NCBI RefSeq assembly: GCF_039905635.1
Contig: NZ_CP157000.1
Coordinates: 682,001 to 746,000, forward strand
From: Microbacterium sp. ProA8
GTDB taxonomy: Bacteria > Actinomycetota > Actinomycetes > Actinomycetales > Microbacteriaceae
DNA: 64,000 bases
Direction of reading: 5' to 3'
Part shown: positions 14,415 through 39,350 of the stretch, piece after piece
Layout: every line of letters starts with the position of its first letter
Numbering within the stretch: position 1 is the stretch's first letter
Made by a program: the position numbers and the translations under genes
The notes under the pieces: generated by a model
Database searches by the model: none
Seen by the model: only the letters and a program-made list of their open reading frames with translations
What the model was told of the DNA's origin: nothing

Positions 14415-15260
14415 ATGCCGCAGCCCGACGCAGACGAGGAGCTCGACGCGATCGCGGCCGAGCTGTACATCCTGCCGCCGTCGGAGTTCACGGCAGCGCG
14501 CAACGCCCGCGCCGGCATGGCGGCCGGACCGCTCGCGAAGCAGATCAAGGCGCTGCGCAAGCCGACCGTCGCCGCGTGGGCCGTCAACCTGCTCGCTCAG
14601 GATGGGCAGCTCGCCGACGCGGTCGAGCTGTCGGCGGCGCTGCGCGAAGCCCAGGACGACCTCGACGCCGCCGAGCTCGGGCGCCTCGGCAAGCAGCGGC
14701 GCCAGCTCGTCGCGGCCCTCGCGAAGCAGGCGGTCGGTCTGGCCCAGGACGCCGGCGGCAACCTGAGCGCCGCCGCGCAGGAGGACGTCGCGAGCACCAT
14801 CAACGCCGCGGTGATGGATGCCGCAGCCGCCGCCGCGGTGCTCACCGGGCGGCTCGTGACGGCGCTGGAGGCCGGGGACATCGAGCCCGGTGCGCTCGCC
14901 GAAGCGGTCGGAGGATCCGTCCCCGGGGTGGTTGCTCCACCTCCCCGTGACGACCTGGCCGAGCGCCGGGCGCGCAAGGCGGCCGAGAAGGCCGCCCGCG
15001 AAGCCGAGCGGCTCGCGAACGAGGCCGAGCGGGAACTCGCGCGCGTCGACGCCCGCCGTGCCAAGGCGCAGGAACGCGTCGACCACGTGCGCGAGCGGAT
15101 CGACGACCTCCGCCGCGACCTCGCGGCGCTCGAGAACGACGAGGCGGGCGCCGTCGACAAGCTCGAGGCGATCGAGCGCGAGCGGGCGGATGCCGCGACG
15201 AAGGCCCGCGATGCCGCGAAGGAGTCCGAACGCGCCCAGGCCGCGCTCGATGACGCCTGA
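14415..15260 (+). CDS. Conserved actinobacterial coiled-coil protein of unknown function
   Basis: 281 residues, no signal peptide. The N-terminal part (LPPSEFTAARNARA and IKALRKPTVAAWAVNLLA) looks like a conserved small domain seen in actinobacterial hypothetical proteins. The C-terminal half (about 175-281) is a highly charged Ala/Arg/Glu coiled coil (ERRARKAAEKAAREAERL onward). No catalytic motif is visible. It sits alone between the methyltransferase and the alarmone synthetase gene. I do not recognise a function. Confidence 0.75.
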   Translation: MPQPDADEELDAIAAELYILPPSEFTAARNARAGMAAGPLAKQIKALRKPTVAAWAVNLLAQDGQLADAVELSAALREAQDDLDAAELGRLGKQRRQLVAALAKQAVGLAQDAGGNLSAAAQEDVASTINAAVMDAAAAAAVLTGRLVTALEAGDIEPGALAEAVGGSVPGVVAPPPRDDLAERRARKAAEKAAREAERLANEAERELARVDARRAKAQERVDHVRERIDDLRRDLAALENDEAGAVDKLEAIERERADAATKARDAAKESERAQAALDDA

Positions 15261-15269
15261 CCGCGGCGC

Positions 15270-15345
15270 CCGACCGCTGCGCTGAGAGCCGCGCTGACCA
15301 CCGCGCCCGACCGCTGCGCTGACCACCGCGCCTGACCGCCGCGCA
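15270..15345. repeat. Degenerate GC-rich tandem repeat
   Basis: Repeated copies of CGCGCT/CCTGACC-type words (for example GACCGCTGCGCTGA and GACCACCGCGCC) between the coiled-coil gene and the alarmone synthetase gene. Low-complexity spacer without an open gene. Confidence 0.5.
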
Positions 15346-15404
15346 GGGAAGAGGCATCCGTCTTTCACAGGAGTCTCGTAGGCCCGCCCCATACCGTCGA
15401 TCGC

Positions 15405-21654: not shown

Positions 21655-21778
21655 GCTCGAATTCTAGGTCGCCGGTCGTCGCGCGCGCGAAGGCGACGAC
21701 ATCCGCCGTATTCGCCCGGTATTCGTGTATCAAACCGGCACTATCGCGCTCGGGCATGGTGTGGACAGAATGGGCGCT

Positions 21779-22396
21779 ATGACACAGGCTGGCGCCGAGC
21801 CATCCGTCGACTCTGCTGAGCCGGCGCGATGGGAGCGCGCCGCCGCACTCTTCGTGCGGTGGCGTGAGGGTGACAGCCGTGCGATGGACGAGCTCGTCCG
21901 CCTGATGACGCCGCCGTTGTGGCACGTCGTGCGGGCGTACGGAGTCGACCCTGCGCTGGCACAGGATGTCGTCCAGACGACCTGGCTGACGCTCGTACGC
22001 CGTCACGAGACCATCAACGACCCCCTCGCGGTGTCGGGGTGGCTCACGATGTGTGCGCGCCGCGAGGCGTGGCGGGTCGGCAAACAGCATCGGCGTGCCG
22101 ATGCGACGGAGGCCGAGTCGCTCGAACCCCACCTTCCTGTCCACGAATCCGCCGAGCAGACCGCCGCACAGGACGACGAGACCCGTCGGCTCTGGACAGC
22201 GGTCGCCACGCTCAACGATCGATGCCAGCGTCTGCTGCGGATCGTCGCGTTCGAGGACCGCCCCGACTATGCCCGCATCGCCGAAGATCTCGCGATGCCC
22301 ATCGGATCGATCGGACCGACCCGCCAGCGCTGCCTCGCAAAGCTCCGCGCCGTACTCGAGGGCGACGGATGGAGAGGTGACGACGATGGAAACTGA
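21779..22396 (+). CDS. ECF-type RNA polymerase sigma factor (sigma-70 family)
   Basis: 205 residues. Region 2 is ELVRLMTPPLWHVVRAYGVDPALAQDVVQTTWLTLVRR; region 4 is LNDRCQRLLRIVAFEDRPDYARIAEDLAMPIGSIGPTRQRCLAKLR. No anti-sigma domain is fused, and no zinc-binding or membrane anti-sigma is encoded next door. ATG at 21779 was preferred to an in-frame ATG at 21725 because conserved region 2 lies a normal distance from it. The downstream small gene overlaps its end by 11 bp, so the two are translationally coupled, and the protease genes follow in the same direction: it is probably the dedicated regulator of this module. Confidence 0.92.
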   Translation: MTQAGAEPSVDSAEPARWERAAALFVRWREGDSRAMDELVRLMTPPLWHVVRAYGVDPALAQDVVQTTWLTLVRRHETINDPLAVSGWLTMCARREAWRVGKQHRRADATEAESLEPHLPVHESAEQTAAQDDETRRLWTAVATLNDRCQRLLRIVAFEDRPDYARIAEDLAMPIGSIGPTRQRCLAKLRAVLEGDGWRGDDDGN

Positions 22397-22853
22397 GGAC
22401 TTCGCGGCCGACGCCGCGCTCTTCGCACGCATGCGCCGCATGTGGGAGGACGTCGATCCGGTGCCGGCCGGACTGGTCGACCGGATGGTGGCCGCCGTCG
22501 CCGTCGAGGACCTCTCGCGCGAGTATGCCCTGCTGACACTCGTCGAGGGCACCCTCGCGGCCGTACGGGGTGAGACCGACACCGCGACGCTGCAGTTCAG
22601 CGACGGCACGACCAGCGTGCTGCTGCACGTGACCGCCACCGAGGACGGCGGCAGGCGCGTGGACGGATGGGTGGATGCCACGGCCCTCGCCATCCGGCTG
22701 GTGCAGGGCGACCACGAGTGGTCGGCAGAACCGGGCGAGCACGGACGCTTCGCCTTCGACGAGGTCACGCCTGGGGTGGCGCGGCTTCGCCTGGTCGTGA
22801 AGGACGCCGACGGCGCTCTGCGCGACTTCCAGACCCCGCAGTTCGAAGTCTGA
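22386..22853 (+). CDS. Small conserved partner protein of the ECF/CHAT module
   Basis: 155 residues, starting inside the sigma gene (11-bp overlap). The N-terminal half is helical and acidic (AADAALFARMRRMWEDVDPVPAGLVDRMVAAVAVEDL); the C-terminal half is a predicted beta-sandwich (ATLQFSDGTTSVLLHVTATEDGGRRVDGWV...GVARLRLVVKDADG), reminiscent of CarboxypepD_reg or Ig-like folds. No signal peptide or transmembrane helix. Position and coupling suggest that it modulates the sigma factor or senses the module's trigger; this is inference. Confidence 0.75.
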   Translation: METEDFAADAALFARMRRMWEDVDPVPAGLVDRMVAAVAVEDLSREYALLTLVEGTLAAVRGETDTATLQFSDGTTSVLLHVTATEDGGRRVDGWVDATALAIRLVQGDHEWSAEPGEHGRFAFDEVTPGVARLRLVVKDADGALRDFQTPQFEV

Positions 22854-22861
22854 AAACAGCG

Positions 22862-22895
22862 AATCGGATGCCTCGGCTGAGGCATCCGATTTCCC
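22862..22895 (+). terminator. Perfect hairpin inside the protease module
   Basis: AATCGGATGCCTC (22862-22874) and GAGGCATCCGATT (22879-22891) pair perfectly around GGCT and are followed by TCCC. It lies 9 bp after the small partner gene and 35 bp before the subtilase gene, so it should end or reduce transcription of the sigma pair before the proteases. Confidence 0.75.
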
Positions 22896-22925
22896 ATGCG
22901 CAGTGCAGTCACATGAAGGGGAATC

Positions 22926-24584
22926 ATGCCTGATTCACAGGACCACAACCACACACCGAGATTGACTTGGCGGCAGCGAGAGGCGCGCCGTGTACGTGCT
23001 GCGCTTCTCGACCCCGACATCCTGCCGGTGGGGACCGGATTCGCTCCGACGGTCTACGAGCCCGACGTGCTCCTGCTCACACCGACGGGCAAGACTGTGC
23101 CGCGCAGTCTGGACAAGTCGCCCCTCGCCGCGGTAGCGGAGAGGCTCGGCTGGACCGTCGAGATCGAGGACCTCGAGAATCCCGAGCCGCAAGACGGCGT
23201 GGGGACCCGCTCGGCCGGGTCGTCGAAGGGCGCGGTTGCCCCCGGCTCCCGCCGACGCAAGGGCGTGGCGCGCACGAGGCGCGTACGCATCGGCGTCGCT
23301 CCCGACCCGAACACACAGCAGCCGCTCACCCGTCCCGATGCGGCCCGCCTGCTCGTTGAAGCTCGCCGCGCCGGGGTCACCGGCATCGGGCTCAACCACG
23401 TTCTCTCGACCGATTCGCTCGACGTGAATCCGTTCAAGGGCAACCCGTTCAAGGGCAATCCGTTCAAGGGCAACCCGTTCAAGGGCAATCCGTTCAAGGG
23501 CAACCCCTCAGGGATCGAGGGGTACGCCTATCCGGGCCTCGGGGGACGGCAGCCGGTGACATTCATCGGTGGAGACCTTCCCGAGCCGAAGCTTCCCCTC
23601 GAGGACCGGCCGGTGGTGGCGATCTTGGACACCGGACATGGCAGCCACCCGTGGCTCGACGAAGCCGTGATCGATCCGGTCGCAGAGTACGGCGGCGAGA
23701 TCGGCATCGTCGACGGTCAAACGGACCCCGACCGATATCCGTCGATCGGCAGCCCCCTGGACGGCGTGGTCGACAGTGCTGCCGGGCACGGCACTTTCAT
23801 CGCGGGCATCGTGCTGCAGGCGTGCCCGGAGGCCCGCATCCTTCCGGTCCGCATCGCAGATGGCGACGGGCTCATCCTGGAGAACGACCTGATCGCGGCG
23901 CTCGGCAGGCTCGTCGACATCGTGGAGGACACCGACGGCGGTGGCCGCATCGATGTCGTGAACCTCTCGTTCAGCTTCTACCACGAGACGCCCGAGCGGC
24001 AGTCCGTCGAGAGCGAGCTCTACGACCTGCTGGCGCGTCTGCGACGGGCCGGCACCGTGGTCGTGTGCTCAGCCGGCAACGACGCGACCGACCGGCCCGC
24101 CGCTCCTGCCTCGATGCACCACTGGGACGGTGCCGACTGCGGGATCGAGAAAGAGAAGGAAGCCGACCTGGTCCCGCTCGTGACCGTCGGTGCGCTCAAC
24201 CCGTCCCGTCACACGGTGGCTCTGTTCTCGAACATCGGGGCATGGGTGCAGACCTATGTGCGCGGCGTGTCGGTGCTCTCGATCATCCCGGTCGACTTCG
24301 AGGGCGGAATCCAGTCGGACCTGCGCAGCGATGAGTACGGTCACCGGCGCGAGACGCTCGACCTCGACGACTTCCGGTCGGGGTTCGCCGTGTGGAGCGG
24401 CACCTCCTTCGCAGCGCCACTGGTGGCCGGCCGCATCGCGCAGCGGCTGGCGGAAGCGCGCGCGGGCTCGGCATCGGCGAAGTCCCAGCCGCTCGTCCAG
24501 CACGTGAGCGGGATCGTCCAGGAAGTGCTCGACGAACAGGTGGCGGAGAAGGAGGATCTGTCGGCGATCAAGCCGTCCGACTAG
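22926..24584 (+). CDS. Cytoplasmic S8-family (subtilisin-like) serine protease with NPFKG repeats
   Basis: 552 residues. The catalytic triad is complete: D235 in VVAILDTGHG, H288 in GHGTFIAGI, S494 in WSGTSFAAPLVAG; oxyanion-type Asn is in VVVCSAGNDATDRPA. There is no signal peptide, so it probably acts inside the cell, unusual for subtilases. The first 165 residues form an unknown N-terminal region with a basic stretch (GSRRRKGVARTRRVR). Residues 168-192 are five exact NPFKG repeats, directly before the catalytic domain. The gene is 56 bp upstream of the CHAT protease gene. It could be activated by, or activate, CHAT in a proteolytic relay; substrate unknown. Confidence 0.93.
   Translation: MPDSQDHNHTPRLTWRQREARRVRAALLDPDILPVGTGFAPTVYEPDVLLLTPTGKTVPRSLDKSPLAAVAERLGWTVEIEDLENPEPQDGVGTRSAGSSKGAVAPGSRRRKGVARTRRVRIGVAPDPNTQQPLTRPDAARLLVEARRAGVTGIGLNHVLSTDSLDVNPFKGNPFKGNPFKGNPFKGNPFKGNPSGIEGYAYPGLGGRQPVTFIGGDLPEPKLPLEDRPVVAILDTGHGSHPWLDEAVIDPVAEYGGEIGIVDGQTDPDRYPSIGSPLDGVVDSAAGHGTFIAGIVLQACPEARILPVRIADGDGLILENDLIAALGRLVDIVEDTDGGGRIDVVNLSFSFYHETPERQSVESELYDLLARLRRAGTVVVCSAGNDATDRPAAPASMHHWDGADCGIEKEKEADLVPLVTVGALNPSRHTVALFSNIGAWVQTYVRGVSVLSIIPVDFEGGIQSDLRSDEYGHRRETLDLDDFRSGFAVWSGTSFAAPLVAGRIAQRLAEARAGSASAKSQPLVQHVSGIVQEVLDEQVAEKEDLSAIKPSD
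23427..23501 (+). repeat. Five 15-bp tandem repeats encoding NPFKG
   Basis: Five in-frame copies of AAYCCGTTCAAGGGC (Y = T or C), alternating in the Asn codon, then a broken sixth (NPSGI). The DNA conservation suggests recent expansion by slippage or recombination. Confidence 0.95.
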
Positions 24585-24640
24585 CCGCCGCACGTCCGAC
24601 CTTCGTCGCATGCGCGGCGAATTCGCGCCATGCTGTGAGG

Positions 24641-27124
24641 ATGACCTTGACGGCTGGGGAGCTGTATCGGCGTGGTCGTGCTCACCTCAATGCGGGTCGC
24701 AACGCGGCGGCACGCCGCGAGTTCGCGCGCGCCGCTGCACGGACGGACGATCCTGATCTCCAGGCACGCATCGCCGGTTCGATGGCGGCCGTGGTGATCC
24801 GGCAAGGTGACCCCGAAGCGGCTGTGCGCCTCTGCGAGGAAGCGCTCGCATATCCGCGGCTGTCCCGACAGACATCGGCGATGCTCCACGGCCAGCTGGG
24901 ACTGCTGGCGCTGGAGCGAGGTGCACTCGATGAAGCGGTGAGCTGGCTGGACAAAGCGATCGACGGCATCGGGGACGAGGCAGAGCATCGGGCCCCGATG
25001 CTGCTCAACCGCAGCCTCGCGCACAGTCAGGCCGGGCGTTTCCGTGCAGCCAGGGCGGACCTCGAACGTGCCGCACCCGACTACGCGGCCACCGGCAACG
25101 ATGTCGAGCGCGCCATGGCGGTCCACAACGCCGGGTACGTCGCCCTCCTGGAAGGCGACCTGATCGCGGCCCTGTCGACGATGGCGGCGGCGCGGGACGC
25201 GCTCGCCGCAGCCTCGGACGTCAACGCCGCGATCTGCGACCTCGACAGAGCCGAGGTTCTGCGCGACGCGGGCCTGGTCGTCGAAGCCGAGAACAGTCTG
25301 GTCCGGGTCGCCCAGACGTTCGGGGCGAACCGGATGCCACAGGCCCGCGGGGAGGCCGAATTCCACCTCGCCCGAGCCTTGCTCACACACGCTCCCGCCC
25401 GCGCGGAGCAGGTCGCGCGTCGTGCGGCGCAGCGGTTCCGCAGGGTGCACTCCGAGTGGTGGGCGCTCCGCGCCGACGGCATCCGGCTGCGAGCCGCTCT
25501 CCTGTCGTCGATTCCGGATGGCGGCGACCGCCGCAGCGCCGGCAGCGGCTCCGCGCGGCGCGTCGATCTCGGCGCGGTCGGCGAATTGTCCGACGCGCTC
25601 CGGAGTCACGGGCTCGAGGCGGAGGCGGAGGCGCTTCAGCTCACCGCAGACCTGTGGCGCGCGCGGGTCGGCATCGACGACCATCAGCACCACGGGGTGC
25701 GCGTCCGTTCGACCGCCCCGATCCAGCTCACCCTGCTCACCCGCCAGGTGCAGGCTGCCCGCGCTCTCGCGCAGGGACGTGAAGATCTGGTGCGCACTCG
25801 TGCGGCCGCCGGCCTCGACGCGCTCAGCGAATGGCAGGCGTCGTTCGGCAGCCTGGACCTCGCGACCTCGCTCGTGATGTACGGAGAGGGGCTGATCTAC
25901 GCCGGGCTCCAGTCGGCCGTTCGTTCCATGCGGCCGGACGTGGTGTTCGAGTGGTCTGAACGCGCGCGATTCCTGAATCAGGAGGTCGTGCCGCTTCGCC
26001 CGCCGCCCGATCCCGAGTTGGCGGCGGATCTGACCGAGCTTCGCGCGCTGCGTGTCGAGGGCGGGCCCGATTGGCTCACGTCAGGCAGGGCGAGGGAACT
26101 GGGCGAACAGCTGCGTCAGCGGCAGTGGGCCACCTCGGGTGCGGCGGGACGACGTTCCCGCGCGTCGCTCGGCGAGCTGCAGGCGGGCTTGGACGACGAG
26201 ACGGCCTCGGTCTCGTACGTGTTCGATCGCACGGGGATGGTGGCCGTCGCGGCGCGGCGGGATCATGCCCGGGTGGTGCAGATAGAGGCATGGCCGGAGG
26301 TGGCGCGAAGCGTGGCTGCGCTGCGGGCGGAGGCGGACGTGAGCGCAGCCGTCCGCGCCGGTCCGATGGCCGCTGTCGTGCAGCGCTCGCTCGATGAACG
26401 CGTCGCATCGCTGTCCGCAGCGCTGCTCGCTCCGGTGGCTGAGGTCGTCGGCGATCGGAAGCTGGTGCTCAGCGTCCCCGGCATCCTCGGCGGCATCCCG
26501 TGGGCGCTCCTGCCGGCCCTTCGCGGGCGGGTCTTCACCGTGGCCACGTCCGCGTCGCAGTGGCTTGCGACGAGGGAGCACGCCGACGGTCGGCGGGTCG
26601 CCTTCGCGGCAGGCCCCCGAGTCGAGCGTGCCGGTGAGGAAGTGGCTCGGGCAGCGGAGGCATGGCCCGATCCCATCGTGCTGCGCGATGAGGACGCGTC
26701 GGTCATGGCGCTCACCCGTGCCGCGTCCCACGTCGACATCCTCCACGTCGCCGCACATGGCCGCCATTCCGCGGAGCACCCGCTGTTCTCGGGTCTGCAA
26801 CTCCACGACGGAACCCTGTTCGGCTACGACGTCGATCTGATCGAGAAAGTGCCGCACACCGTTGTGCTGTCGGCGTGCGAGGTCGGCCGGTCGTCGATCC
26901 GCTGGCACGAGGAGGCTGTCGGGATGACCCGCGTCTGGCTCCACGCTGGATCGCGCAGCGTCGTCGCGGCGCCTGTCGTGGTCGCCGACGACGCGGCGTG
27001 CGACCTCTTGGGAGCGATGCACGAAGGCCTGGCAGCGGGGGTCGCACCGTCGATCGCACTGGCGGAGGCGTCTCGGCGGACGGGGATCGTGGCCCCGTTC
27101 CAGGTGCACGGCGCCGGCTTCTGA
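24641..27124 (+). CDS. TPR-CHAT domain protein (caspase-fold cysteine protease)
   Basis: 827 residues. The N-terminal half is a TPR superhelix (for example AGELYRRGRAHLNAGRNAAARREFARAAAR and MLHGQLGLLALERGALDEAVSWLDKAI). The C-terminal third is a CHAT domain with the caspase-type dyad: H706 in HVAAHGRHS and C746 in VVLSACEVGR; the strand LVLSVPGILGGIPWALLPAL is the usual entry to the domain. No signal peptide or membrane helix. CHAT proteases are relatives of caspases and separases that are activated through their repeat domains in bacterial conflict systems. Here it follows a cytoplasmic subtilase, so the pair may form a proteolytic cascade under the ECF sigma factor. The trigger and targets are unknown. 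Confidence 0.93.
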   Translation: MTLTAGELYRRGRAHLNAGRNAAARREFARAAARTDDPDLQARIAGSMAAVVIRQGDPEAAVRLCEEALAYPRLSRQTSAMLHGQLGLLALERGALDEAVSWLDKAIDGIGDEAEHRAPMLLNRSLAHSQAGRFRAARADLERAAPDYAATGNDVERAMAVHNAGYVALLEGDLIAALSTMAAARDALAAASDVNAAICDLDRAEVLRDAGLVVEAENSLVRVAQTFGANRMPQARGEAEFHLARALLTHAPARAEQVARRAAQRFRRVHSEWWALRADGIRLRAALLSSIPDGGDRRSAGSGSARRVDLGAVGELSDALRSHGLEAEAEALQLTADLWRARVGIDDHQHHGVRVRSTAPIQLTLLTRQVQAARALAQGREDLVRTRAAAGLDALSEWQASFGSLDLATSLVMYGEGLIYAGLQSAVRSMRPDVVFEWSERARFLNQEVVPLRPPPDPELAADLTELRALRVEGGPDWLTSGRARELGEQLRQRQWATSGAAGRRSRASLGELQAGLDDETASVSYVFDRTGMVAVAARRDHARVVQIEAWPEVARSVAALRAEADVSAAVRAGPMAAVVQRSLDERVASLSAALLAPVAEVVGDRKLVLSVPGILGGIPWALLPALRGRVFTVATSASQWLATREHADGRRVAFAAGPRVERAGEEVARAAEAWPDPIVLRDEDASVMALTRAASHVDILHVAAHGRHSAEHPLFSGLQLHDGTLFGYDVDLIEKVPHTVVLSACEVGRSSIRWHEEAVGMTRVWLHAGSRSVVAAPVVVADDAACDLLGAMHEGLAAGVAPSIALAEASRRTGIVAPFQVHGAGF

Positions 27125-27326
27125 CCCAACGGGACCTCGACATCATCGACCCTCGCGGCATCACGAACCCGGTCATCGAGATCCCGCGCCGGCATGTATC
27201 AGAGCCGATGCCGCGTGCTCCTGGTCATCGGAACGGCTCGTGCACGCCGACCGGGGGGCCGGGTGCAGAGCAGAAGGCCACTCTGGGAAACGCAGGTCGG
27301 GCTGCGGGTCTTCGCGCCGATCCATG

Positions 27327-27361
27327 AGGGGCGCCGCACTGGGGACTGGGGTGGCGCCCCT
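27327..27361. terminator. Hairpin between the CHAT gene and the convergent LysR-like gene
   Basis: AGGGGCGCC (27327-27335) pairs with GGCGCCCCT (27353-27361) across a 17-base loop, ending 41 bp before the LysR-like stop. The 278-bp gap 27125-27402 otherwise holds no gene I can support. Confidence 0.6.
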
Positions 27362-27402
27362 CCTCCGTGCCCAGTGACGATTCCCCGGTTCAGCGTGCAG
27401 GC

Positions 27403-37137: not shown

Positions 37138-37185
37138 CGCAACAGCATAGAGGCGTCGCGTCAGCGTCCCGTGCGGCGAATTCAC

Positions 37186-37673
37186 CGGTCGTTGGGCGAG
37201 CGAGGGACGAGCGAGACGAAACGCGTGCACTCGACGCGATCGAGAGGTTCGAGGCGTTTCGTCTCGGTCGCTGGCGCTCCCTCGCTCAACGACCGAAGCT
37301 TGGTCCCGGTCGTTGAGCGAGCGAGGGACGAGCGAGACGAAACGCGTGCACCCGGCGCAATCGAGAGGTTCGAGGCGTTTCGTCTCGGTCGCTGGCGCTC
37401 CCTCGCTCAACGACCGAAGCTTGGTCCCGGTCGTTGAGCGAGCGAGGGACGAGCGAGACGAAACGCCTGGGCGCGGCGCAGAACGTGTCAGGCGTCCGGT
37501 GCGGCGAATTGGCCGGTCGTTGAGCGAGCGAGGAACGAGCGAGACGAAACGCGTGCACTCGACGCAGTCGAGAGGTTCGAGGCGTTTCGTCTCGGTCGCT
37601 GGCGCTCCCTCGCTCAACGACCGAAGCTTGGTCCCGGTCGTTGAGCGAGCGAGGGACGAGCGAGACGAAACGC
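37186..37673. repeat. R1 tandem-inverted array (five forward, three reverse units)
   Basis: Forward units start at 37186, 37307, 37428, 37514 and 37635; reverse units start at 37254, 37375 and 37582. Forward unit, spacer and reverse unit repeat with a 121-bp period (37186 to 37307 to 37428; 37514 to 37635). The array fills the 557-bp gap between the hydrolase start and the amidohydrolase stop, where no gene is credible; frames through it merely translate the repeat. Confidence 0.92.
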
Positions 37674-37694
37674 CTGGGCGCGGCGCAGAACGTG

Positions 37695-39350
37695 TCAGGC
37701 GTCCGGTGCGGCGTAGACCCGCTCGCCCTGCACGAAGGTCTGCAGGGTGCGGGAGGCGCCGATCTGGTCGGCCGGGCCGGCGAAGGGATCGCGGTCGAGC
37801 ACGGCCAGATCGGCGTACTTGCCGACCTCGATCGTGCCAGTGACGTCGTCGAGGTGGTTCACCCACGCCGACCCGGCGGTGTACGCGGTGAGCGACGTCG
37901 CCAGGTCGATCGACTGCTCCGGATAGAAGGGGTCGTACTCGCCCTCCTCCTGACCGGGCGCGGCCATGCGGTTGACCGCGGTGTGGATCGCGGCCATCGG
38001 ATCGGGCGTCGACACCGACCAGTCGCTCCCCGCTGCGAGCACGGCGCCCGAGCGCAGCAGGTCGCCGAACGGGTACTGCCACGCGCTGCGCTGCTCGCCG
38101 AAGAACGGCAGGGTCAGCTCGACCATCTGCGGCTCGTACGTCGCCCACAGCGACTGCATGTTCGCGGCGACCCCGAGGTCGCGGAAGCGGCGGATGTCTT
38201 CGGGATGCACCACCTGGATGTGCGCGATGTGGTGGCGGTTGTCGCGGCGGCCGTTACGGGCGATCGCGTGCTCGACCGCGTCGAGGCACTCGCGCACGGC
38301 GCGGTCGCCGATCGCGTGGAAGTGCACCTGGAAGCCCGCGGCGTCGAGGAGGGGCACAGCCTCGTTGAGGACGGCAGGGTCGACGAACGATATCCCCGTG
38401 TTGTCGGTGAAATGGCCGTGGCCGTCGCAGTACGGCTCGAGCATCGAGGCGGTGAAGTTCTCGGCGACGCCGTCCTGCATCACCTTCACGGATGTCGCGG
38501 CGAAGCGTCCGCCGCGGTACCGCTCGCGCCGCTCGAGGATCGACGGGATCTGCTCGAGGCCCTTGGTGCGGTCCCACCAGATCGCTCCGACGACGCGCGC
38601 CGTCAGGGTGCCGTCGGCCGCTGCCGCGAGGTAGGCGGGGCCGGGGTCTCCGGCATCCCCGTACGAGCCGACGATGGCGTCCTGCCAGGCCGTGATGCCG
38701 AAGGAGTGCAGGTAGCGCTGGCCGAGCAGCAGCGCCTCGGTGAGCCGTGCGAGCGGCTCCTCGGGCAGCAGGCGGTTGACGAGGGCCATCGCGCCCTCGT
38801 GCAGCGTGCCCGACGGGGCGCCGTCGTCGTCCCGCTCGATGCGGCCGTCTGCCGGTTCAGGGGTGTCGCGGTCGATGCCCGCGCGCCGCAGCGCGGCGGA
38901 GTTCACCCACGCGCCGTGGCCGTCGCGGTTCGGGAAGAACGCCGGGCGGTCGCCGGTGACGGCGTCCAGCGCCGATGCCGTCGGCGTGCCGCCGGGAAAC
39001 GCCGACATCTGCCACCCGCCACCGAGGATCCACTCGTCGTCGGAGTGCGCGCGGACGTAGTCGCCGATGGCGTCGAGGTACTGGGCGGCCGTGCTGAGTT
39101 CGGAGAGGTCGCAGCGGAGCATGTCGAGCCCGCCCCACACCGGATGCACGTGGGCGTCCTGGAACCCGGGGATCAGCATCCGCCCCGCGAGGTCCACGAC
39201 CTCGGTCGACGGGCCGACGAGGTCGCCCAGGTCGCCGGGCGAGACGGCGACGATGCGCCCGTCCGCGACGGCGACGGAGCCGGCACGCGAACGCACGGTG
39301 TCGGCGGTGAACACGGGTCCGCCGGTGAAGACGAGGTCGGCGTAGGGCAT
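37695..39350 (-). CDS. Amidohydrolase family protein (YtcJ-like, amidohydro_3)
   Basis: 551 residues. Metal-dependent hydrolase motifs: PGFQDAHVHPVWGG (HxH near residue 70), a mid-protein SVKVMQDG with the bridging lysine region, FHAIGDRAVRECLDAVEHA, RHHIAHIQVVHPEDI, and AAGSDWSVSTPDPMAAIHTAV with the distal Asp. It resembles exoenzyme-regulatory-protein/YtcJ-type deacetylases or amidases; the substrate is unknown. No signal peptide. It is in the same direction as the pot importer upstream and the hydrolase downstream. Its last 15 bp belong to a 31-bp motif that is repeated in the neighbouring R1 array. Confidence 0.9.
   Translation of the reverse strand: MPYADLVFTGGPVFTADTVRSRAGSVAVADGRIVAVSPGDLGDLVGPSTEVVDLAGRMLIPGFQDAHVHPVWGGLDMLRCDLSELSTAAQYLDAIGDYVRAHSDDEWILGGGWQMSAFPGGTPTASALDAVTGDRPAFFPNRDGHGAWVNSAALRRAGIDRDTPEPADGRIERDDDGAPSGTLHEGAMALVNRLLPEEPLARLTEALLLGQRYLHSFGITAWQDAIVGSYGDAGDPGPAYLAAAADGTLTARVVGAIWWDRTKGLEQIPSILERRERYRGGRFAATSVKVMQDGVAENFTASMLEPYCDGHGHFTDNTGISFVDPAVLNEAVPLLDAAGFQVHFHAIGDRAVRECLDAVEHAIARNGRRDNRHHIAHIQVVHPEDIRRFRDLGVAANMQSLWATYEPQMVELTLPFFGEQRSAWQYPFGDLLRSGAVLAAGSDWSVSTPDPMAAIHTAVNRMAAPGQEEGEYDPFYPEQSIDLATSLTAYTAGSAWVNHLDDVTGTIEVGKYADLAVLDRDPFAGPADQIGASRTLQTFVQGERVYAAPDA

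Follow-up and report, generated by a model that had tools for sequence, protein, structure and literature searches.

A Microbacterium sigma factor, subtilase and TPR-CHAT protease module with a strain-specific peptide array and an exchanged cassette that looks like a lock-and-key recognition system

We analyzed a 64,000-nucleotide stretch (hereafter the window) of the 4.37-Mb chromosome of Microbacterium sp. ProA8, in which four genes, referred to here as SIG, BETA, S8 and CHAT, encode an extracytoplasmic function (ECF) sigma factor, a small partner protein, a subtilase-family protease and a tetratricopeptide-repeat (TPR) protein ending in a CHAT protease domain (Table 1). The first-pass annotation of this stretch had described four co-oriented genes with one overlapping pair, and this was borne out, as all four lie on the + strand and SIG and BETA overlap by 11 bp. 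The start of SIG should be placed at the ATG at 21779 and not at the alternative GTG at 21725, because the latter precedes the promoter motif at 21726-21751.

Table 1. Features of the module and their positions in the window.
Feature	Position	Strand	Basis
P1, ECF-type promoter motif TGTATCA-N16-CTC, 5' of SIG	21726..21751	+	own-genome motif scan
SIG, ECF sigma factor, 205 aa	21779..22396	+	TIGR02937, Sigma70_r2
BETA, 155-aa sigma partner	22386..22853	+	model: helical hairpin and 8-strand beta sandwich; anti-sigma role inferred
S8, predicted cytoplasmic pro-subtilase, 552 aa	22926..24584	+	PF00082, predicted structure, catalytic residues
I9-like prodomain of S8, residues 42-161	23049..23408	+	model secondary structure and structural alignment
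Tandem array, NPFKG x5, at the S8 pro/catalytic junction	23427..23506	+	TRF, homologue comparison
TPR-CHAT protease, 827 aa	24641..27124	+	PF12770 and TPR matches
TPR part of CHAT, residues 1-330 (1-216 track the array)	24641..25630	+	domain matches, distance covariation
CHAT domain, residues 590-813, with H706 and C746	26408..27079	+	domain match, residue conservation
Exchanged cassette, BETA stop to about CHAT codon 694	22854..26722	.	border as against L137
P2, second promoter-motif copy, just 3' of CHAT	27195..27220	+	own-genome motif scan
Probable structured RNA, putative start, 3' hairpin at 27326-27362	27221..27362	+	

The protein assignments made earlier were upheld by family searches. 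SIG matched TIGR02937 with 64.6 bits (cut-off 42.9) and also Sigma70_r2. S8 matched PF00082 (E 2e-22), and its catalytic residues D235, H288 and S494 were kept, together with the oxyanion residue N385, in 92 of 93 S8 proteins. CHAT matched PF12770 (E 6.6e-25; 88.6 bits, cut-off 24) as well as TPR families, and the H706/C746 dyad was kept in 99 of 100 CHAT proteins, the remaining one being gapped there; among solved structures, the TPR part came closest to kinesin-light-chain-like proteins (5o09, E 3.4e-4). No hydrophobic N-terminal segment, signal peptide or membrane span was detected in the four proteins by a simple hydropathy scan, consistent with the earlier statement that S8 lacks a signal peptide, and hydropathy within the first 60 residues of S8 peaked at 0.97, which is not the signature of an exported pro-peptide. 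Structural alignment of the S8 model placed its prodomain and catalytic domain as in pro-Tk-subtilisin (2e1p) and PCSK9 (6u2f), and S8 is accordingly modelled as a cytosolic pro-subtilase with an I9-type prodomain before the catalytic domain. BETA matched no Pfam or NCBIfam family above cut-off, and its profile found no convincing relative in the PDB (best E 0.049). Its predicted model combines a helical hairpin (residues 3-50, partly of low confidence) with an 8-strand beta sandwich. SIG and BETA distances agreed closely over 53 Microbacterium loci (r 0.93; L168, with a truncated CHAT, was dropped before these matrices were made), and BETA may be an anti-sigma factor of SIG. Two more CHAT proteins are encoded in the same genome outside the window (G000:C1:2256710-2257480 and G000:C1:780146-780949, both on the - strand), and no relatives of SIG, BETA or S8 were called in the 18-kb stretches around them.

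Linkage of the four genes was followed in two overlapping sets of loci, one comprising the best 80 of 87 relatives and a second, class-wide set comprising loci around BETA-profile and S8 matches outside the own genome (L023 and L151, for example, lie on contigs of equal length). The first-pass annotation had proposed a recurrent four-gene module and had named a lack of linkage as the finding that would speak against it. Linkage does recur, since all four genes stood together in 68 of the 80 loci and in 55 of the 68 class-wide loci, many of them in the same genomes, with an order that often differed in the class-wide set. Within the genus, an S8 relative was present in 14 of 22 other genomes, and 13 of the 14 loci found via S8 had the order SIG-BETA-S8-CHAT, whereas the fourteenth, a 4.6-kb contig, contained just S8 and CHAT; this conservation of gene order exceeds chance. 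Neither BETA nor CHAT was found in the eight same-genus genomes without S8, so that the module was all-or-none among the 22 genomes, as far as searched. The BETA profile matched 52 of 393 genomes of the class, in 24 of 122 genera. The four genes are real and intact, and their arrangement is widely conserved.

Incomplete loci showed how the module is divided. Three of the 80 loci held SIG and BETA only (two of them on contigs of 3.1 and 6.1 kb), and three held S8 without CHAT (two of these lying close to the end of a contig). Nine genomes with a solitary SIG-BETA pair were searched; S8 and CHAT adjoined each other elsewhere in six, and two yielded no CHAT. The module therefore consists of two sub-pairs, and this adjacency, together with the covariation of S8 and CHAT distances, supports the earlier view of S8 and CHAT as a pair. 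Single loci also departed from the common pattern. SIG and BETA stood without nearby S8 or CHAT, and without the promoter motif, in L108-L110, L112, L114, L119, L124 and L127 (one family, two genera); L195 (Microbacterium sp. NIBRBAC000506063), counted among the 68 of 80, carries a decayed module in which SIG, S8 and CHAT are all broken up, each across several reading frames; and L145 has two CHAT open reading frames (ORFs) and two promoter motifs 3' of the operon, as if the locus were partly duplicated.

The junction between the prodomain and the catalytic domain of S8 carries a 15-bp tandem repeat of 5.1 copies, which encodes NPFKG five times and is disordered in the S8 model (residues 165-195, with a predicted local distance difference test score, pLDDT, under 50). 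The array motif had no other occurrence in the own genome. In homologues, the corresponding position was occupied by arrays of different units, among them NPFTG, NPFKA, NPFTRT, NPYGST, NPHGMT, NPFGGTKT, PYSTPL and HPFSQP. By one fixed rule, arrays of at least three copies were found in 64 of 71 S8 ORFs of the 80-locus set, namely in 59 of 60 Microbacterium ORFs (one unclassified metagenome-assembled genome being counted with that genus) and in 5 of 11 elsewhere; L142 was dropped before this count. The same rule detected such arrays in 0 of 75 control stretches of the same S8 proteins and in 1 of 356 of CHAT. Pro followed by Phe, Tyr or His was present in all 64 arrays, and units without an aromatic residue after Pro occurred in the class-wide set (GHPITG in L095; GYGDGV in L098 and L103). 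No basic or acidic residue stood at a fixed place in the units. Between copies within 65 distinct arrays, synonymous divergence (pS) was 0.51 and nonsynonymous divergence (pN) 0.013 (pN/pS 0.025); the copies are therefore old as DNA and held identical as peptides, and the arrays are under purifying selection. Changes of the unit were common to all copies of an array, as in NPFTRT, NPFSRT and NPFSHT.

S8 and approximately residues 1-690 of CHAT form a cassette that is exchanged between strains, and SIG, BETA and the catalytic end of CHAT follow the chromosome. Among 35 nonredundant loci (the 53 Microbacterium loci minus 18 dropped by S8 similarity), distances agreed between S8 and the TPR region (0.65) and hardly at all between SIG+BETA and S8 (0.07). 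Along CHAT, agreement with SIG+BETA returned near residue 720, reaching 0.58 at 721-780 and 0.72 at 761-820, a stretch that agreed with S8 at only 0.07. The flanking GATase gene followed SIG (0.72) and CHAT 721-827 (0.67), as against 0.00 for S8 and 0.24 for the TPR region (29 loci); the LysR flank failed as a control in this comparison. The borders were visible at the DNA level in six chosen locus pairs. M. kyungheense (L140) and M. jejuense (L138) were 94.6% identical up to the BETA stop, had nothing alignable across S8 and most of CHAT, and matched again at 86.2% from about CHAT codon 696. In L137 against the window and against L161, homology likewise ended at the BETA stop and resumed at about codons 694 and 683, respectively, with short stretches of 68-72% between. 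The pair L143/L140 shared the left border, with homology back earlier, at about codon 388 (72.5%), and L161/window and L156/L158 were collinear throughout.

Array identity moderately tracked the TPR region of CHAT beyond shared history. In partial Mantel tests on the 35 loci that controlled for the distances of the S8 catalytic domain and of SIG+BETA, array distance was correlated with TPR2 (residues 111-220; partial r 0.32, p 0.001), TPR1 (0.20, p 0.003) and TPR3 (0.15, p 0.017), and no tracking was observed for CHAT 691-827 (-0.05). In a scan of 104 windows over S8 and CHAT, eight of the top nine array-tracking windows lay within CHAT 1-216, and the best S8 window (0.20) ranked tenth. The TPR2 value ranged from 0.28 to 0.36 on jackknifing and was 0.29 among pairs with different units. 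At S8 distances of 0.30-0.40, the mean TPR2 distance was 0.24 for same-unit pairs (n=4) vs. 0.43 for the others (n=51); the corresponding values were 0.24 (n=2) vs. 0.45 (n=40) at 0.40-0.45 and 0.26 (n=6) vs. 0.32 (n=22) at 0.12-0.30. Because the TPR region tracks the array, it is the likely sensor, as had been suspected earlier.

The sequence [TC]GTATCA-N16-CTC was found 5' of SIG in 56 of 79 loci of the 80-locus set, 44 of them with the 16-base spacer, and at least one such motif with a spacer of 16-17 was present in 27 of 45 class-wide loci, often 5' of the first gene whatever the gene order. This conserved motif 5' of the operon supports the earlier proposal of a sigma factor dedicated to the module. 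Of 74 loci with CHAT, 49 had a second, co-oriented motif within 1.5 kb 3' of that gene, with a spacer of 16 in all; it was mostly about 20 bases past the CHAT stop, and 71 bases past it in the window. No conserved ORF was found 3' of this motif. A 3' hairpin of 11 pairs was common to 22 aligned sequences, five pairs having changes on both sides; the 5' part of the putative RNA gave no consensus structure, and the putative RNA had no Rfam match. TGGGG occurred 3' of the second motif 2.53 times per 180 bases, vs. 0.61 in mononucleotide shuffles and 0.06 on the other strand (49 sequences; L154 was dropped from this count). P2 thus probably precedes a structured RNA, and SIG may use both P1 and P2. 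Other genes were also seen under the motif: a divergent HopA1-domain gene (PF17914) in Occultella (L197:6496-7425 and L199:6457-7389, - strand), and, in Cellulomonas loci that lack S8 (L209:7016-8983 and L211:7402-9057, - strand), a divergent gene whose match to trypsin-like proteins was weak. Elsewhere in the window, we noted a 201-nt direct repeat in three copies, 86-100% alike, at 37185-37713 and a 37-nt tandem repeat in three copies at 15257-15355.

Taken together, the two-part organization and a strain-specific repeated peptide with a probable reader resemble lock-and-key recognition. The cassette contains both the putative key and the putative lock, which are therefore exchanged as one, and the division into a constant part (SIG, BETA and the CHAT catalytic end) and a variable part (the S8 array and the TPR region) suggests that the sensor can be changed without touching the output. 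For physical binding, the order of cleavage, the biological role and the RNA's job, we infer the following. S8 would arise as a cytosolic pro-enzyme, with a short strain-specific peptide, in most cases based on P-[F/Y/H], repeated several times at its junction. This peptide would be read by the TPR half of CHAT, either on S8 itself or as fragments cut by S8, and the reading would set CHAT activity; CHAT would act on the constant partner BETA and so free SIG, which would transcribe its own operon from P1 and the structured RNA from P2. That the variable S8-array/TPR input controls the constant CHAT-BETA-SIG output in this way, like the protease-sigma circuit of Craspase (discussed below), has in our estimate somewhat less than an even chance. 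The fuller proposal of an intracellular lock-and-key locus, in which the TPR half recognizes a strain-specific pro-protease peptide, the cassette is multi-allelic, the sigma output (operon and structured RNA) is constant and a non-matching allele or its products are scored as non-self, is tentative, and we assign it a probability of roughly 0.3. The first-pass annotation stands in the linkage, the dedicated sigma factor, the S8-CHAT pair and the TPR sensor; its two-protease cascade and its role in phage defense or cell death are hypothetical, and the module may act in defense, kin recognition or stress. The array, the cassette, the second motif and the probable RNA had been missed, and the first two of these make the module of greater interest than it had seemed.

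Several observations weigh against control of the sigma output by the array and the TPR region. The evidence for coupling is statistical, and shared history can inflate partial Mantel tests. The S8 catalytic stretch 308-332 tracked TPR2 at 0.31, about as well as the array at 0.32, and the array also tracked the S8 catalytic domain given the TPR region (0.25, p 0.001). Unit distance by the third residue alone removed the TPR2 signal (-0.10), and the 12 same-unit pairs spanned TPR2 distances from 0.07 to 0.50. The array finder, which allows about one mismatch per unit, favors near-identical copies and biases pN down. S8 was absent from six of the 80 loci, all of them Cellulomonas, and a distant clade keeps S8 and CHAT with no array. 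No anti-sigma family was detected for BETA in Pfam, NCBIfam or the PDB profile search.

Four other explanations were considered. The input unit may diversify in an arms race with phage proteins, with no reading of self and non-self peptides; such a phage-defense role is possible at best, though CHAT and S8 proteases are known in bacterial conflict systems (PMC7159879, PMC8195603), and the all-or-none presence within the genus and the cassette exchange suit defense genes. PADLOC, however, gave no strong match, only weak generic ones (subtilase, E 1.9e-4; IetS, E 2e-4; BovA, E 0.046), and the identity of copies within an array is not by itself demanded by an arms race against a foreign protein. 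Somewhat doubtful is the array as a bait: TPR-docked CHAT would cut it, detach the prodomain and activate S8, the effector, which would degrade proteins of the cell or of a phage; SIG would only raise expression. The array does lie where a cut would activate S8, the TPR half tracks it, and the trypsin-like genes of L209 and L211 stand under the motif as if any protease could serve as effector. Yet the CHAT catalytic end (H706, C746), expected to help read a substrate, shows no tracking of the array and is not part of the cassette, and the units share no charged residue at a fixed place.

An unlikely alternative is that the array serves S8 alone, as multiple self-processing or self-inhibitory sites, and that the TPR link is residual shared history of one cassette. 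Pro-Phe/Tyr suits the S2-S1 sites of a subtilisin, for which Suc-AAPF-pNA is a substrate. HET-Q2, also of the S8 family, likely cuts after F238 (PMC12881547). The tracking of the S8 catalytic domain by the array, and of TPR2 by S8 308-332, would fit this explanation as well; against it, the array tracked the TPR region better than any S8 stretch in the unbiased scan, and the units GHPITG and GYGDGV lack an aromatic residue after Pro. A neutral flexible linker in an ordinary stress regulon is very improbable, for although the array is disordered in the model, its pN/pS, the unit changes common to all copies and the near absence of such arrays from control stretches all argue against it.

If the lock-and-key proposal is true, the module would offer a recognition locus in bacteria in which the key, a homogenized peptide array, and the lock, a TPR receptor-protease, are readable from sequence; both would be swappable between Microbacterium laboratory strains, making the reading of self and non-self by proteases directly testable. 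ECF sigma control by a TPR-CHAT protease, otherwise known to us only from Craspase, would then exist without evidence of CRISPR at the locus, the RNA under the same motif would be an output unexpected from gene annotation, and many actinobacterial sigma-S8-CHAT operons would gain a working hypothesis.

Among known systems, I9-type pro-subtilases such as pro-Tk-subtilisin and PCSK9 share the arrangement of prodomain and catalytic domain with S8, whose junction differs in bearing a homogenized peptide array and whose gene lies in an operon with a sigma factor and CHAT. RRNPPA systems use short peptides, derived from an exported pro-peptide, and TPR-fold receptors in matched pairs. The same kind of pairing between short peptides and a TPR fold is presumed here, but the peptides would come from a cytoplasmic protease whose N terminus has no hydrophobic segment, and the receptor ends in a protease. 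EACC2-caspase systems, which contain an ECF sigma factor and a DUF1822 TPR protein, likewise have a caspase-like protease, a TPR protein and an ECF sigma factor in one neighborhood, with constant and variable parts (PMC8195603); in contrast, no DUF1822 match was found in the four proteins here, the TPR is fused to the protease, and S8 carries an array. Fungal het-Q1/het-Q2 and protease-gasdermin clusters are polymorphic loci in allorecognition with S8 or TPR-bearing CHAT proteases (PMC12881547). At the present locus, however, no gasdermin match was found among nine flanking ORFs (Pfam), the output appears to be transcriptional, and the allelic forms are variants of a single linked gene pair.

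Craspase is the only experimental precedent known to us in which a CHAT protease acts on an ECF sigma factor: Csx29, a TPR-CHAT protease, cleaves Csx30, an inhibitor of CASP-sigma, and thereby relieves the sigma factor (PMC10028731). The present module differs from it in several respects. No CRISPR-like direct repeats were found in window positions 12000-38000, the stretch searched, Cas7-11 not having been searched for; a profile of 17 CHAT proteins listed no Csx29 chain among its PDB matches at E 1; and the module has an S8 pro-protease with a peptide array, and a partner of only 155 aa. We do not class it as Craspase; but both Craspase/DiCASP and the present module place a TPR-CHAT protease beside an ECF sigma factor and an intermediate protein, and in outline the module would appear to work like Craspase.

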